Positions 22,382 to 36,607 of a stretch of 36,607 bases of DNA are shown in pieces (the stretch's first letter is position 1; every line of letters begins with the position of its first letter). The notes beneath the pieces were generated by a model, which saw only the letters and a list, made by a program, of their open reading frames with translations, was not told the origin of the DNA and searched no databases. This DNA is from a candidate division SR1 bacterium. GTDB lineage: Bacteria > Patescibacteriota > Gracilibacteria > Absconditabacterales > Absconditicoccaceae. The stretch is taken from positions 1 through 36,607 of the forward strand of contig SKJI01000044.1 of assembly GCA_007115995.1 (NCBI GenBank), written 5' to 3'. Made by a program: the position numbers and the translations under genes.

Positions 22382-23479
22382 CTATAGCGATAATAAACCT
22401 GACTGCAAGCATCAAACAACTCAGATCATCGCAGCGTTATCAGTACAATAGACAAATTCTTTAGGGAAAAGCACCGAATAGCCCGATCTCTCAAGATGTG
22501 CTCTGAGTGATACATTTGCAGAGACTCATCACACCACTCAAATTGTTGCAATACGGTGATGCGTTGTTCGTTGGTATTGATCATACACGTGTTCGAGTCA
22601 TTGTGATAATCATTGTGCTACTGCTTGCTGAAAATTATAAGCTATTTGCTCTTTGATCTCACTTGGAAGAAGATCTGAGGATTCTATCTGGTATTGGGTT
22701 TTATACGACTGTATCATTTGTTCTACTTGCGATTTGAGACCAGAAAAGCTTCGGACTCATTCCTTCCATGAAGGGATAGAGAATGATCTCAGTAATGCAA
22801 GACCATGGTCAGATGCGGTATCTTGTATCCACTTTCATCAAGGATATGGTCATCACAGCATTCTTGCGACTTTATCAAAGACCTCTCACGCTGCATCATC
22901 TGCAGTTTGCGCAAATTTCGTCACACGATACGGTCCCACATCAATATGTTCTCAGAGTGCAAGATGATTTCTTTTGGCAACGGTATGTGCTTGAATGTAT
23001 TGAGGAAATTGTACCGTCTTGATGTCCTCTACTAGATAGATATCGTTATGTCCGCCACTCACCGTCAAACAACAATATGGCAAGGTAATACTCTCCAGTG
23101 ACCTTCATGCCAATATCGAAAACACATGCCCCATAATATGATTGACATGAATGACTGGTTTTTGGTGTATTGTTCATAGTGTATGTGCAACAGTGACTCA
23201 TACGGTCAATGCACTTGGTAATCATGGATGCGACGTTACTGAAATAGCATCAATCGTTGCTCGATCAACTTCTACTGCATCGATAAGCTCTGGTAGTTTG
23301 ATTGTATGAGATCTTGCCGCAAGTTCTGGCACTACTCATCATCGCTTTTGATGTGCAAGCTGAGTATATGACAACAACATATCAACCGAAAAAACTCAAG
23401 CACGATACGACACCAATGCGATAGAAGTATCATCACAGCTTGTCTCTATAGCTAATGTTGTAAATGATTTACTCGTCAC
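22382..23479 (-). CDS. tsaD: tRNA N6-threonylcarbamoyladenosine transferase TsaD
   Basis: 365 residues. The ASKHA-fold signature LAIETSCDDTSIAL is near the N-terminus (about 10-23), followed by VTSHPGLPSALTVGVTVA, the metal-site region HVNHIMGH (family form H-x-E-G-H; the Glu is Met here), LTVSGGHND, GGPYPGGKW and FSGLKSQVE. With TsaB/C/E it makes t6A37 on ANN-decoding tRNAs. I take the GTG at 23479 as start: its G is shared with the TAG stop of the upstream small gene (TAGTG), a translational-coupling overlap, and it places the ETSCDDT motif at the usual distance. Confidence 0.9.
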
Positions 23480-23691
23480 TATTTCTTTGGTAATGCATTG
23501 AATAAAACTGTTATCAACAAAAATGGAAATAACAAAAAACGCCATATCGTTGTTTTTTCCCAAAGATATGCAGGATAATCATGTAACAAAAATTGTAAAA
23601 TCTCTGAAAAGCGATTACTCTCAGGACGCTTCCTTGTTCCACGAAACGGAAATATGAAAAAGTCTTTTATTAGAAGAAAAAATTGTTTCAT
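23479..23691 (-). CDS. Small membrane protein (70 aa) upstream of tsaD
   Basis: Reads MKQFFLLIKDFFIFPFRGT, a charged middle, then a second hydrophobic stretch WRFLLFPFLLITVLF and ends ALPKK. I know no family. It contains no UGA codon. The stop overlaps the tsaD GTG, and a good promoter stands directly upstream, so it is likely the first gene of this transcription unit. Confidence 0.6.
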   Translation of the reverse strand: MKQFFLLIKDFFIFPFRGTRKRPESNRFSEILQFLLHDYPAYLWEKTTIWRFLLFPFLLITVLFNALPKK

Positions 23692-23930: not shown

Positions 23931-25307
23931 ATGAAAACATTTTTTAACCATGTTGCTTTCTCATTACTCATATTGGTTCTAGCATCAGGTAATTTTATTG
24001 CTGCTTGAGATGACCATAATCATCTTGAAGAAACTACACGGCAACTTCTAACGTACAATGAAGAATCAGTACAATGATCACTTTCATTTGATGCAGAGAT
24101 GATGTACAGCCAGTTTTGTAACAATGTATCACAAGGCTATAGTGTGTGAACATGATGATTAATAGCAACTGGTCCTTGAATGAGTACACTTATGTATTGT
24201 GAATGAATCAGTATGGATATGGAAACAGTCTTCCTACTTTCAGATGATGCTACACCATTTGAGATTCTTGATAACATTCTTACCATTACATTCAACTGAG
24301 AACACAGATTTGTTTTTGAGCTAGTTGCTGAACAAGATGAAGATTCTGAGCATAATGACGATGATAGTATCATTGAAAACGAATGAAACAATGAAGACGA
24401 TATGATCATTTGTCCAGCTGTACGAATGCCAGTTTGTGGAAATGATGGACAAACATATGGAAATAGCTGTGAAGCACAATGAAGAAATGTAGAAATACTG
24501 CACGAAGGAGAATGCGAAATTGTTGATCCATTTGAGGATGAAAGATGTGTTGCACTCTTTGATGGATGTAACAACTGTGCAAGAATTGAATGATCTGATG
24601 AGCGAGCATGTACGAGAATGTACTGTGATGAAGATCATACCACAGAAGCGTACTGTACGCACTTTGCTGACAGTGACATTGATACTGATACAAGCGAAGA
24701 TGCAGACCATACTGATACCGCTCCTACAAGTATTCCGACAATAGTATGTGATGAAGGAACTCGATCTCAATCAATGATGGATTGTCTTGTATCAGCAGAT
24801 GACGATACTCGTACAGACCTCCAACAAGCATACGATCTTGCATTCAACGTTTGAATGACAACAATGGAGTCAATCGAAGCATTTAGAACAGATGACTGGT
24901 TGATGAGACAAGAAGCTGCAAAAATGTTTGGTGCATTAGCAATTAATCATTTTAACAAAGAAGTAATGACTGATGCAGAACTCTGTCCAGAAACATATAC
25001 CGATGATGAGCAATTTGATTATACATTGAGACCATTTATTTATGATGCATGTGGTCTCTGATTGATGAGATGAGCATCTGGTGCATTTCTTCCTGAACAA
25101 TCACTCACAAAATGAGAAACGTTAGCTATTCTTATGAGACTAGTTGATGGGTTTCAAGAAGAAGAAGATACACAAACACGATGGATGCCATACGTACTCA
25201 GAGCAAATGGATTATGAATCCTGACAATCGAATCTACTGATGATTTCAATAATCCTATCCTCAGACAAGAACTCATTGAATGGGTATGGATGATTACACA
25301 AGCATAG
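23931..25307 (+). CDS. Secreted Kazal-domain protein with SLH-like C-terminal segments
   Basis: 458 residues. A signal peptide (FSLLILVLASGNFIAAG) is followed by a domain of about 115 residues and an acidic linker. A Kazal-type inhibitor domain spans about 161-195: PVCGNDGQTYGNSCEAQG and HEGEC. It has four Cys, lacking the pair usually present as first and fifth. A Cys-rich stretch follows (DGCNNCARIEG, RMYCDE). From about 320 there are helical segments like S-layer homology domains (RQEAAKMFGALAINHF, then GLGLMRGASGAFLPEQ and KGETLAILMRLVDG). Kazal domains block serine proteases; SLH domains tie proteins to the cell wall. So a wall-held protease inhibitor is a fair inference. A terminator follows directly. 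Confidence 0.85.
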
Positions 25308-25334
25308 TGTATCATTACAAAACTATAAAAAAAT

Positions 25335-25367
25335 CCTATACAGTTCAGTCTGTATAGGTTTTTTTTT
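25335..25367 (+). terminator. Intrinsic terminator after the Kazal-domain gene
   Basis: A perfect 9-bp stem CCTATACAG / CTGTATAGG (25335-25343, 25350-25358) with a 6-nt loop, followed by nine T. It is 27 bp after the stop codon and is the clearest terminator in the window. Confidence 0.9.
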
Positions 25368-25381
25368 ATAACAATCCTACC

Positions 25382-27277
25382 CTACTCTCCACATTCCTTG
25401 ACCATGTATGTTCAGTCACGATGATATCATTTTTTTTGATAGTATCATCTAACTCATACTCATGAGATCACTGACAGACGCTTGTATCACCATGTATGAG
25501 CAATTTTTTCAGCATAAAAAAGAAGTTGTGTACCAAATCAACCGTGTTGTGCAGTATGATCGCCTGATTGTTTGTTTGTTGATGCTAATGCTTGGAGTGT
25601 CCCATAGACATGTAATTCTCTAATCAATGCAGTATCAGCTCACAATCATGGAAAATCTATGGTTTCCTCCGGTAATGGGAGTAATAATCTCGTAAAACCA
25701 TACAGATATCATAAGGTATCTTCAAACGAACAAAACATTTCGATACCATTTGATGATCTATATGCCCTGACAACAAAAAATGGCTTACTCGTCGCTTCTT
25801 TGGGTTTATGTCTCATTTCACGACATCTAGTACATAAACAAACAAATCATCTTGTTGCTGTACAATCTTCAGATCACGCAAGCATAAACGTTTTAATCTC
25901 ATCTGACGCATCATATGTCCATCATTCACAATTTTGTTTGGGAGTAACAGTAAACTCACTATGACGAATACGCTCCAAAAACTCATCGATATCTCAGCAG
26001 ATAGTACAGTTTGGGAAGAGTCTTTGATATTGTTGTACTCTCGCTTCCTTATCGGTATAAAATTCCTGTTCCATCTCTTTCATGATGAGCTGTCTCAAAT
26101 TTGGCGTATTTGCTCATGCGACTACTTCATTGGTATCAAAATCACGAGCAAGACGTTTGATTCTTGCATAAGGAGGAATAATCTCACATTTACATCTCCT
26201 TATAATCATTGCTAAATCATCAGATTCAATCGGTTTATATGCTCATGATTTCCATAAATCATACAGTCATGTATTTGGAATCACAGCAGTTGGATAAAAT
26301 TTCAACTCATCAGACTTGATTGCTATTGCCTCAAATGCTACACGAAATGTCTCGAGATCCATCTCAGGAGTAGATGTGTACAATCATGGCATATAATGAT
26401 TTGAAATCTTAAAGCCATACTGTCTCAACTTGTGCATTGCCTTGGTAATTGCATCATTATCATGACCACGGACATTTGCCTCGTGAACAGAATTATGTAA
26501 TGTCTGTATACCCATCTCCATACGAGTAATTCATAAGCTTCTTCGATACTGACAGTTCTCATCCGTCACATATTCCGGTCTCGTCTCTACCGTTAGTCCA
26601 ATTATTCTATTTTTTGCAGTTTCATTGAGAAGAATTGACTCTTCTACTGTGTCTGGATATGAAAACTCTAATGACTCAGTTGCCGTATATCTTGCAGATT
26701 TTGGGTTGGAATAATCAATACTAATTTGTGAAAGAAACTCATCAAAATGATTGCACGCGTCGTATAGTCACTTAATGAAAGCAGTTTTGTATGATTGTGG
26801 ATAGACATCTCGAGTTCATCCTAACACAATCATCTCAATTTTATCTGTTGCATGTCACGTGAGCATAAGACTCAAAAGTCTATTATAGACTTGTTTGTAC
26901 GGATCAAACTGATTGAGTAGCGCTCTCATCGCTCATGGCTGTGTATTGATATAGCTCTTTGGCATTGTTGCATCAGTTGGGCAGAAGATACACTTCCCAG
27001 GACACCAAAAAGGTTTGGTCAGCACTTGTACCGCAACAATTCATGATTGAGATCTAATTGATCTTTTCTGTAAGAGACGATCAATACGTACATCATGCTC
27101 TAGTTGCTGTTCTGCGACCATTTTTTTGTATGTTTTGAGGAGTTCCATATTGGTTGGAACATGCTGTTTTCATGCAGATTTTGCCCATGTTCTTTTCATG
27201 GTTATCACATCATCTCTCGTTAACCTCTCAAGATCTGACTGAGCAATATCTCCTATCAATGTATCCAATGTATGCAT
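25382..27277 (-). CDS. elp3: Elp3-family tRNA uridine(34) acetyltransferase (radical SAM)
   Basis: 631 residues. The radical-SAM cluster motif is PFWCPGKCIFCPTD (Cys92, 96, 99). Following are IEMIVLGGTRDVYP, TVETRPEYV, ITRMEMGIQTLHNSVH, HYMPGLY and DELKFYPTAVI. The C-terminal acetyltransferase domain has AQHGGFGTQLLFYAEKIAH and RLSVISGVGVRGYYQK. In archaea and some bacteria Elp3 alone makes carboxymethyl-uridine at the tRNA wobble position from acetyl-CoA and SAM. The neighbours upstream (90 bp) are the ATP-citrate lyase genes, which can supply that acetyl-CoA. Start at the first ATG after the gap. Confidence 0.94.
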
Positions 27278-31492: not shown

Positions 31493-32413
31493 TTACTGGT
31501 TTAATGTCCTTTCTATATAGTTCAAGACATATCTTTTGAATTTAGCATCATATGAACTATCAGAAAGGTCCATTTCTGATCTTATTGTAGTAATTTTTTG
31601 ATTCATTGCACGTACAATTTCATCCTGTTTTGTAGGTGGTAATTTTTTGAGATCATCAAGCGTACTCAAAAAACGAAATCTCATTGAGAATGGTATCAAT
31701 ACTTCATTCATTTCAATTTTTCTTCATCTTAATATCCACCTTCATTCTAGTCAGTTTGTACACGCAAAAACAGTAATTTCTCTTCATCACTGAGGTAGTA
31801 AAATTTCAACATCAGTTGGAACTGTTTCATATGATTGTTCTATTGCAAATCTAATTAATTCAAATGATCATCAATTGTCTGTACCATCAAAAATCCATAT
31901 TTCATCCTCAAATATTGGATCTAATGCCATAATATCTGCAAAAATAGTCTTATAGTCTCACGGTGCATTTCTAAAGAAATTACTATGTCAAAATATTACT
32001 GGGTTTCACTCTTCTCAAGGCATAGGTGTACCAGCATAATGTAACACTCAGTCATTAAGATATTTATTAATATCAATTTCTCTTCATAATCTCATATCTT
32101 CAAAATCTTGAGATCATTGAGGAATACGAATTATCGGCGCAACCACTCATAACGTTGGCAATACAATATACATATCGTATTGATCTGCTCATGGATATGG
32201 AATGATTGATTTCCAATATGTGATATCTTGAGGAGCGTCAAGCAAAGAAAACGGTGTTAACCAGTCTGGTGCTTCCCAAGCAAGACGATCAGACTTTAGT
32301 GTTATTACACCTTTTTCTTCTTTTGGTGTTAATGCATACAATAGATCTCCTCACCAAAATAATCATACTATACAAATACTTCATAGGAGCATTAGTAATA
32401 TTCTCTGTTTCAT
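31493..32413 (-). CDS. Sortase (transpeptidase) 1 with C-terminal helical extension
   Basis: 306 residues. An N-terminal anchor (LLMLLGSICIVGLFWGG) precedes the sortase beta-barrel: LHYAGTPMPGEEGNPVIFGH with catalytic His143, TVFACTNG with Cys218, and GRWILRGRK with Arg225 or Arg229. Sortases cut LPxTG-type signals and join the protein to the cell surface; a gene for an LPQTG protein lies nearby (35384-36607). About 70 residues after the barrel form a charged helical tail (FLSTLDDLKKLPPTKQDEI), unusual for sortases. The FGH glycine is UGA. It ends 34 bp before the acidic protein gene. Confidence 0.88.
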
Positions 32414-32425
32414 TGTTGTGTCAAG

Positions 32426-33391
32426 TTATAAAGGATAAATAGCAGCAAGTTTATCTTCAATCAACTCTAAGAGTTGCGATTTAAAAGCAAATTGATTATC
32501 AGAAGTGCGTAATGAGTTTCTCGCTCTTTGAATTCATTGAAAAAGAATAATAATTTGTAGTTTTCTCTTATCTATACTTTGTAAATTCATAATAGAAACA
32601 GCTCTTTCCACACGATTCACAATATGCTGTGGAACATCAGGATAGAGATCAGGAAGTACTGTCACGGTGCTTTCTTGCTTCCTTGGTGTTCATAAATATG
32701 TTGCTTCAACCATTCGTCTTCCAGCAATTCAATAATAACAACCAAAAATCAGTGCATCAGCTCATAATCAGTCTCGTAACAATGCCTCTACATCACTTGG
32801 ATCTGTTGGATAAGATGCAGTAACTTCATATGGGAAAAACTCAAATGTTCATCATGGTAGTCTTTGGAAATACCAGACTTGATCACCTGGATCTAACCAC
32901 ATCAGATTTGCAAAAATTGTTTTATACCTACCAGGATCATTTCTAAAGTAGTTGCTATGACCAAAATCTATACGTTTTCACTCAAATCATGGAGGAACGC
33001 TTCATACATACTCTAATATTCAATGTTGTAAATAATTATTGATACCAATCTCCCTTCACGATAACATGGTATAATAATCTTGCGATCAATGCGGGACAGA
33101 GATAATTGGTGCAACAAGTCACAATCAAGGTATAACTAAATAAAGATCAGCATGTCTATCTTCAGGAAATGGTAATACTTGTAACCAAAAGTTCATATCT
33201 TTAGGAGCGGTACGATGATCTATTGGAATAAACCAATCAGGTTTTTCCCATACAAGGTTTGGTGATTGTAAATATAACTCCAATCAAGGATACTTTATTG
33301 CTGGATCAGTAATTGCATGTGTTTTATTTGTTATAATATACAAAAAAAACACACTTGTAAGAGTTAAAACTATATAAATTTTTTTTATCAT
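32426..33391 (-). CDS. Sortase 2, diverged paralogue
   Basis: 321 residues, 12 bp upstream of sortase 1 and clearly its paralogue (both have APKD/APQD, PIISVPHGSQDY / PIIRIPQGSQDF and FGHSNYF / FGHSNFF). N-terminal export segment YIVLTLTSVFFLYIITNK. Catalytic residues: His145 (DFGHSN), Cys208 (IFGCYYG) and Arg215/216 (AGRRMVEA). The HYAGT motif before the His is altered to EYVGS, and the PGEEGN loop to PGFEGK, so substrate choice may differ. It also has a C-terminal helical tail of about 90 residues (NRVERAVSIMNLQSIDKRK). Confidence 0.83.
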
Positions 33392-33514
33392 ATGCATGCA
33401 ATTTTATAGACCACAAAAAAATTAACTTGAGCATAGATATACTACAAATTCATTTAAAAAAAACAATGGCATTTAGAGTAGCATCTACCTAGGAAATGAA
33501 AAATTTATTTTCAT

Positions 33515-35383: not shown

Positions 35384-36607
35384 TTAAGGAAGTAATAATC
35401 TTCTTGATGGGGCGAATCTTTCCAATCTTCATGTTTGCGGCAGTATCGCAGGAGTTTCTATTGGTCTAAAGACAATAGGTTCTGGACGAAGTATTACTCT
35501 ATCTTCAATTTCTCTTTCTCTTTCTTCGATTCTATCGATCACAATATTCTCTTCTAATTGACATGTAGAACTACATCCATCTCAATCAATCAAATTTCAA
35601 TCATCACATTGCTCTCATACTTCTACAATTCCATTTCCACATACTGGAGTTGGAATTGAACTCACAGATCATCAAGCATACCTTACTCTAGAATAAACAA
35701 CTGCAACTTCTTCATTACATCTAACATCGTTATTTCTTGCAGTTGCAGTAATTGTATATCTTCAATTTGTTGTATATGTTAATTCTATTTCAAATCTTCA
35801 CTGACTATCTACTGTTACAAGCTGATCATTTACTCTCACTTCTGCAGTAAGATCCTGTACAGTTCCAGTTACTAATACATTATTTGAAGAACTCGTCGTA
35901 TCATTTGCAGGCGATGTAATAACTAGTCAAATAGGATCCTCACAAACTTCTCATGTTGCTGAGACTGTTCATGTTCAAGCTGGACAAATATAATCAACTC
36001 AATCAGTCATACCTGTACAAATAAACTCATAATTTCATGTCTGTAGTGGTGTATACTGCCATGTCTCCATATCATTACCATCTGTATCCACAAGCACAGG
36101 ACTATTTCATAATATTACTCAATTACGCTTTACTGTTACAATAAATTGATCAATATTTTCTCACGTACATGTTACAAGGAAGTTTCAACTTGTTCATAAA
36201 ATAACAGATGCTGGACTAACTGTTGTATCTAAACATACTGACGTTGATGGTTGATCATCTGGATTATACTGTACTGAAAATTGTATATCTAATGGTGCAC
36301 ACAATGAGTCCAAAGGAGTAGCAATGATTGTTAATGAATTGTTTCATACTTGTAACGGTATGAGAGTACTCCATGTGTTTCAAACAATAGAAGCCTGAAT
36401 AATTTGTCATGTTGATAATTTTATATGTATAGATGCTGTTCATGGCTCAACTGTTCATGATAGAGTAATAACATTGGAATTCACAATCTCTCATGAAACA
36501 TGTGAATCTACTGTCAGTGTTTCGATTGGCTCTTCACATACTGGTGTATGTGGTGATGTCACAACTCATGTTGCCGCTGGACATGCTACATCATCGTTTG
36601 GTCACCA
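35384..36607 (-). CDS. Large Ig-like surface protein ending in LPQTG (C-terminal part)
   Basis: Partial: the start lies beyond the right edge; 407 residues are seen. Repeated beta domains are visible: VNSNVITLSGTVEPG ... NNSLTIIATPLD, and ITSPANDTTSSSNNVLVTG with GRYTITATARN, bacterial Ig-like folds. Then a Cys-rich repeat of the DUF4215 type, CGNGIVEVGEQCDDGN plus IDGDGCSSTCQ, a charged stretch (RIEEREREIEDRV), and finally ETPAILPQTG followed by RLERFAPSRRLLLP and stop. LPQTG is a sortase signal; its Gly is a UGA codon. A membrane span normally follows such a signal, but here only 14 basic residues do. Two sortase genes are 2-4 kb downstream. An adhesin role is inferred. Confidence 0.85.

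Follow-up and report, generated by a model that had tools for sequence, protein, structure and literature searches.

The locus at 23931-25307 (+) raises the question of what a Kazal domain does on a protein of a tiny and probably host-dependent bacterium. Inhibitor modules of the Kazal and pacifastin types are known mainly from animals. The window, which is the whole stretch of 36,607 nucleotides that was analysed, comes from a genome of 1.0 Mb (94.5% complete), and the reading frame is open only when TGA is read as glycine: the standard code was rejected, since 16 TGA codons would break the frame, and genetic code 25 (TGA=Gly) was adopted. One of the TGA-encoded glycines, G381, stands in an invariant glycine column of the aligned SLH family. 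The genome and its use of code 25 are consistent with the SR1/Gracilibacteria lineages that have this code. The gene is solitary, with both flanking genes on the opposite strand, and the region shows the following features:

22382-23563, - strand: tsaD-like flanking gene (by eye)
23931-25307, + strand: whole gene, encoding P0001, 458 residues under genetic code 25
23931-24005, + strand: signal-peptide-like N-terminus, residues 1-25, MKTFFNHVAFSLLILVLASGNFIAA, by eye, without a lipobox cysteine
24030-24329, + strand: META/HslJ-like domain, approximately residues 34-133 (Pfam, AF2, Foldseek)
24405-24518, + strand: Kazal domain, residues 159-196 (Pfam, AF2, Foldseek, alignment)
24417-24422, + strand: predicted Kazal scissile bond P1-P1', Ala163-Val164 (position C2+2, alignment with LDTI and GmSPI-2)
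24546-24656, + strand: pacifastin-like (WFDGCNxC-type) module, residues 206-242, with six cysteines and the canonical Cys4 missing
24615-24620, + strand: predicted pacifastin-type P1-P1', Arg229-Met230, in the CTRMYC loop (rule from PMC13388995)
24795-25304, + strand: SLH domain with three repeats, residues 289-458 (AF2, Foldseek, Pfam matches of the family)
25327-25366, no strand assigned: two-way intrinsic terminator, 3' of the gene
25382-27277, - strand: Elp3-like flanking gene (by eye)

From the N- to the C-terminus the protein shows a signal-peptide-like segment, the META/HslJ-like domain, an acidic linker, the Kazal domain, the pacifastin-like module, a second acidic linker and the SLH domain. 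An NCBIfam search with the protein gave no match; neither did a search of genome contigs with the full protein, where its most distinctive peptides were not found again. Elsewhere in the window there are two adjacent sortase-like genes, 31493-32413 (-), with 41.3 bits, and 32426-33397 (-), with 21.2 bits and under its cut-off. Near this pair, 35384-36607 (-) encodes a DUF4215/Glucodextran_B surface protein with LPQTG in its C-terminus and, by eye, no obvious hydrophobic tail. The contig edge, 2-709 (-), encodes a protein that is cut short and matches DUF285 (100 bits), a repeat family whose name comes from Mycoplasma.

The preliminary description of this DNA placed the Kazal domain between an N-terminal domain and SLH-like segments, and this layout holds. 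The N-terminus suggests that the protein is probably exported. The N-terminal domain is META/HslJ-like: its META score (PF03724) is just under the cut-off (22.7 bits vs 24) and that of a relative, L040, is over it (34.4 bits). The AF2 model of this domain has a pLDDT of ~95, and its nearest Foldseek matches are 2la7 (E 1.5e-5) and E. coli 2kts (E 9.7e-5, TMt 0.71); matches to DNA sliding clamps, with an rmsd of 11-18 A, were disregarded. No link between META and Kazal domains was found in the papers searched. Because a joint alignment of the whole protein put the SLH rows wrongly, the SLH domain was aligned and modelled separately from the N-terminal part. For the SLH segments the fold stood and the Pfam match did not: the model has a pLDDT of 91.8 and finds nothing but SLH domains among its 15 best PDB matches, whereas the score of the protein alone with Pfam SLH (PF00395) is 13.1 bits, under the cut-off of 20.8. 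In its family, 21 of 23 members match Pfam SLH at E below 0.01, and the model shows the C-terminus as a complete three-repeat SLH domain. The SLH domains of Bacillus anthracis Sap (3pyw; Foldseek E 8.3e-5) and Paenibacillus SpaA (6cwc) have the same three-repeat fold (TM 0.65-0.69), but with only 15-20% identity, and a cysteine pair, C352 and C374, in invariant columns is specific to the family of the protein studied here. About nine further copies of this SLH family are present in the same genome, and within the taxonomic family the protein has a match in 46 of 49 genomes, mostly via the SLH domain. Proteins of ~540-700 residues with two tandem SLH domains (L041, L044-L046, L048-L053, L055-L060 and L064-L066) were also found, one per genome in 19 genomes, and are candidates for S-layer or other core envelope proteins.

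The Kazal domain is confirmed by both Pfam models: residues 156-195 score 30.8 bits with Kazal_2 (PF07648; cut-off 22.8) and 28.9 bits with Kazal_1 (PF00050; cut-off 21). The inhibitor loop is also retained and exposed in the predicted fold (AF2 pLDDT ~90), which superposes at 0.5 A on LDTI (leech-derived tryptase inhibitor; PDB 1an1; a non-classical Kazal inhibitor) and at 0.7 A on GmSPI-2 (Galleria mellonella silk protease inhibitor 2; PDB 4hgu; MEROPS I1). The Foldseek E-value of the model is only ~0.03 because the domain is small, and the probability is 1.00. In Kazal numbering the four cysteines of the domain, C161, C169, C180 and C195, are C2, C3, C4 and C6; C1 and C5 are lacking, in agreement with the preliminary description. 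The classical six-cysteine scheme (bonds 1-5, 2-4 and 3-6) does not apply and, given the absence of C1 and C5, the domain is assigned to the non-classical two-disulfide form of GmSPI-2. The wax moth inhibitor lacks the same two cysteines, shows an identical four-cysteine spacing of 7, 10 and 14 residues and shares 47% identity over 36 columns; it is, however, a single free insect domain with Thr at P1, whereas the bacterial domain has Ala at P1 and belongs to a multi-domain, SLH-anchored protein. GmSPI-2 (cysteines C5, C13, C24 and C39; two disulfides) is highly active on subtilisin and proteinase K (PMC4169406), and EPI1a, which is without the other pair (C3 and C6), likewise inhibits and is stable (PMC1236909). 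LDTI aligns gap-free, with 53% identity over 36 columns, but has all three disulfides and Lys at P1. The predicted P1 residue, Ala163, would suit elastase- or subtilisin-type proteases.

Loss of the C1-C5 pair, which had been singled out as a noteworthy feature, is not special to this protein. Among the complete-core Kazal domains of relatives, the pair is absent in 38 of 48 and present in seven; the other three have C5 and no cysteine close before C2. The 38 include seven domains scored as C1-only, which were put in the pair-lacking class because most such cysteines are the last cysteine of the preceding domain. Among 14 distinct Kazal domains listed from elsewhere in the phylum, 13 are without the pair (by eye), and GmSPI-2 inhibits without it; the four-cysteine Kazal domain is the majority, ordinary bacterial form in this lineage. 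The claim that Kazal domains are rare in bacteria stood in part: they are uncommon in the phylum (14 of 287 genomes sampled phylum-wide), yet not exceptional: the cut-off is exceeded in 36 of 118 near relatives and in none of the 14 genomes used as controls. The loop frame C-[TP]-P1-x-x-x-P-V-C-G, with T or P at P2, is conserved in relatives, and within the loop P1 varies most, with some other surface positions equally variable; Glu, Asp, Gln and His are found at P1 in some relatives. Seven loci (L040, L061, L082, L083, L020, L111 and L132) have a Kazal variant in which an insert of 12 residues brings in two additional cysteines (PVCG..QC...PC.PI..TF.N.C), and that of L040 is under the Pfam cut-off although homologous.

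The second cysteine-rich motif, DGCNNC and MYC, was noted in the preliminary description and left unnamed there. It belongs to a module, CVALFDGCNNCARIEGSDERACTRMYC...C, with six cysteines (C206, C213, C216, C227, C232 and C242), whose AF2 confidence is low (~57) and whose Pacifastin_I score (PF05375; MEROPS I19) is 18.1 bits, under the cut-off of 27.9. Pacifastins have the bonds C1-C4, C2-C6 and C3-C5 and a reactive loop with the rule C5-x-P1-P1'-x-C6 (PMC13388995). The module shares with this family, including the bacterial members reported in PMC13388995, the signature DGCN-x-C ... C-T-P1-P1'-x-C with Arg-Met at P1-P1', and its loop C-T-R-M-Y-C fits the rule; it differs in its score under the curated cut-off and in its scaffold, in which Cys4 (of CxC) and its partner are missing and a downstream cysteine, Cys242, is additional. 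Because Cys4 is missing and Cys242 is extra, it is termed pacifastin-like and not a pacifastin member. The predicted P1 residue, Arg229, would suit trypsin-type proteases.

Modules of this kind, which have lost the canonical Cys1-Cys4 pair, form a subfamily with a scattered distribution in bacteria. A scan of the genomes of 84,980 species gave 35 loci with the WFDGCNxC signature, including two cultured Gilvimarinus strains, Myxococcales, Sulfurovum, Bdellovibrionales and many Patescibacteria. Three members exceed the Pacifastin_I cut-off (L023, 30.2 bits; L071, 28.0 bits; L111, 28.1 bits), and ten score 15.8-27.7 bits with a model built from canonical bacterial modules alone; none of 500 cysteine-preserving shuffles of each of ten members reaches its own real score. 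A profile search of the PDB gave nine matches, all of them pacifastins (E 0.05-5). In two loci of Myxococcales type, L109 and L119, the signature and the canonical extra pair are found side by side. Of 49 modules, four have both the additional upstream cysteine (C0) and the canonical Cys4, 44 have neither and one is an exception, and the sole module without C3 is also without its partner C5. This co-occurrence matches the pacifastin bonds and suggests that the C1-C4 bond was dropped and that another pair, C206-C242, may be used instead. The same class also has canonical six-cysteine pacifastin modules that adjoin SLH repeats (L073, two copies, 61 bits). A 2026 paper described pacifastin-like domains from CPR and Myxobacteria, with the six-cysteine scaffold as criterion (PMC13388995); a search of its text gave no mention of SLH or the S-layer. 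The same survey reports no pacifastins in Archaea (PMC13388995). A WFDGCNTC pacifastin-like module was found in L103 (JACOVN010000127.1), labelled Woesearchaeota, which may be a contamination or a binning error.

The modules recur in shuffled order in relatives. Those with META show the orders META-Kazal-SLH-DUF6174 (L040), SLH-Kazal-META (L086), Kazal-META (L082 and L083) and SLH-META-META (L085), and five of the seven META proteins found contain a Kazal domain. L040, a protein of 496 residues from the relative G008, shares the order META, Kazal, SLH with the protein of this locus, but its Kazal domain has a PCPPI-type insert, the pacifastin-like module is absent and a DUF6174 domain is extra. 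Kazal and SLH are combined in seven proteins (L061, L004, L010, L012, L013, L005 and L015), four of them (L004, L010, L012 and L013) with a four-cysteine Kazal domain in other genera, and Kazal and pacifastin-like modules in L002 (of the same genome), L003, L023 and L028. A Kazal domain is present in 11 of 36 ORFs chosen by the pacifastin-like motif alone. This recurrence argues for a shared task and against chance fusion. A recurring motif of the type GG-D-DEHGC-x-SAGY-x-W-x7-C-x-R-x-x-E was also seen between Kazal or SLH and META in L040, L083 and L085.

The reading preferred here, with a probability of about 0.58, is that a secreted, SLH-anchored protein displays two modules of the serine-protease-inhibitor type that would guard the cell surface against foreign proteases. 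The C-terminal SLH domain would hold the secreted protein on the surface, and the two-disulfide Kazal domain followed by the divergent pacifastin-like module would be displayed between the acidic linkers. Each module would act by the standard (Laskowski) mechanism, in which a rigid loop enters the active site of the protease as a substrate and stays there: the Kazal loop, by its P1 residue, on targets of the elastase/subtilisin type, and the pacifastin-like loop on trypsin-type targets. Foreign proteases would thus be kept off the surface layer, or off the zone where the cell touches a partner. Computation supports the domains, the folds (that of the SLH domain included), the cysteine pattern, the loop residues and the recurrent combination; export, disulfide bonding, protease inhibition and its target are inferences.

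A target inside the genome is an unlikely but live alternative, in which the Kazal module would restrain the cell's own exported subtilase on the surface. The genome encodes a single Peptidase_S8 protein (E 6.4e-25), with a hydrophobic N-terminus and the Asp, His and Ser motifs in place, and a Trypsin_2 search of the same genome gave no match, which keeps this alternative alive; two-disulfide Kazal domains are, moreover, known subtilisin inhibitors. However, the two genes lie on different contigs (C33 for the gene of this locus and C27 for the subtilase) and linkage is not seen, the trypsin-type Arg at P1 of the pacifastin-like module has no obvious target in the genome, and the diversity of Kazal P1 residues between relatives looks more like the tracking of outside targets.

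Not all Kazal-like domains inhibit proteases, and those of follistatin and agrin do not. Both modules could be structural or adhesive spacers of the envelope, as are the non-inhibitory Kazal domains of the animal matrix, and the multi-domain, SLH-anchored setting, the matches to VWC-type Pfam models that the second module's canonical relatives give in some cases and the acidic, Gln or His P1 residues of some relatives, untypical of strong inhibitors, point that way. This is improbable, since the Kazal loop frame is conserved while P1 varies and two unrelated inhibitor folds co-occur repeatedly (the 11 of 36 ORFs above). Least probable of all is that DGCNNC/MYC is an unrelated, random cysteine cluster and the Kazal domain the only inhibitor module. 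The low score, the missing Cys4, the extra Cys242 and the low pLDDT would fit such a cluster, but the members over the Pfam cut-off, the shuffles, the loci L109 and L119, the paired presence and absence of C0/C4 and C3/C5, and the pacifastin-only PDB matches of the profile all disfavour it.

Kazal, pacifastin and SLH modules are each already known, and there is nothing unusual in a four-cysteine Kazal domain; the new elements are an SLH-anchored double module in code-25 bacteria and a pacifastin-like subfamily whose cysteine pattern is altered. The literature search found no paper joining Kazal domains with Gracilibacteria; one paper that mentions both Kazal and 'S-layer homology' (PMC3901451) concerns, by its abstract, B. 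subtilis IPI. The subfamily bears on the 2026 report of bacterial pacifastins: it takes their known range into cultured Gammaproteobacteria and includes forms intermediate between canonical and altered cysteine patterns. A broader view, tentative and rather less probable than the reading of this single protein, is that code-25 Gracilibacteria and their kin possess a shuffled kit of SLH-anchored, multi-headed Kazal and rewired-pacifastin inhibitors whose P1 residues change fast in an arms race with host or prey proteases, and that WFDGCNxC marks a widespread branch of the pacifastin fold in prokaryotes, as yet without a name, where a bond of the C206-C242 type has taken the place of C1-C4. Ultra-small, partner-dependent bacteria live on protease-armed cells, and the means by which they survive there are little known. 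The 90-residue double module, with its predicted scissile bonds, makes protease shielding testable in vitro, with no need of culture; if the modules act as their shapes suggest, the surface of these cells could be shielded from proteases.
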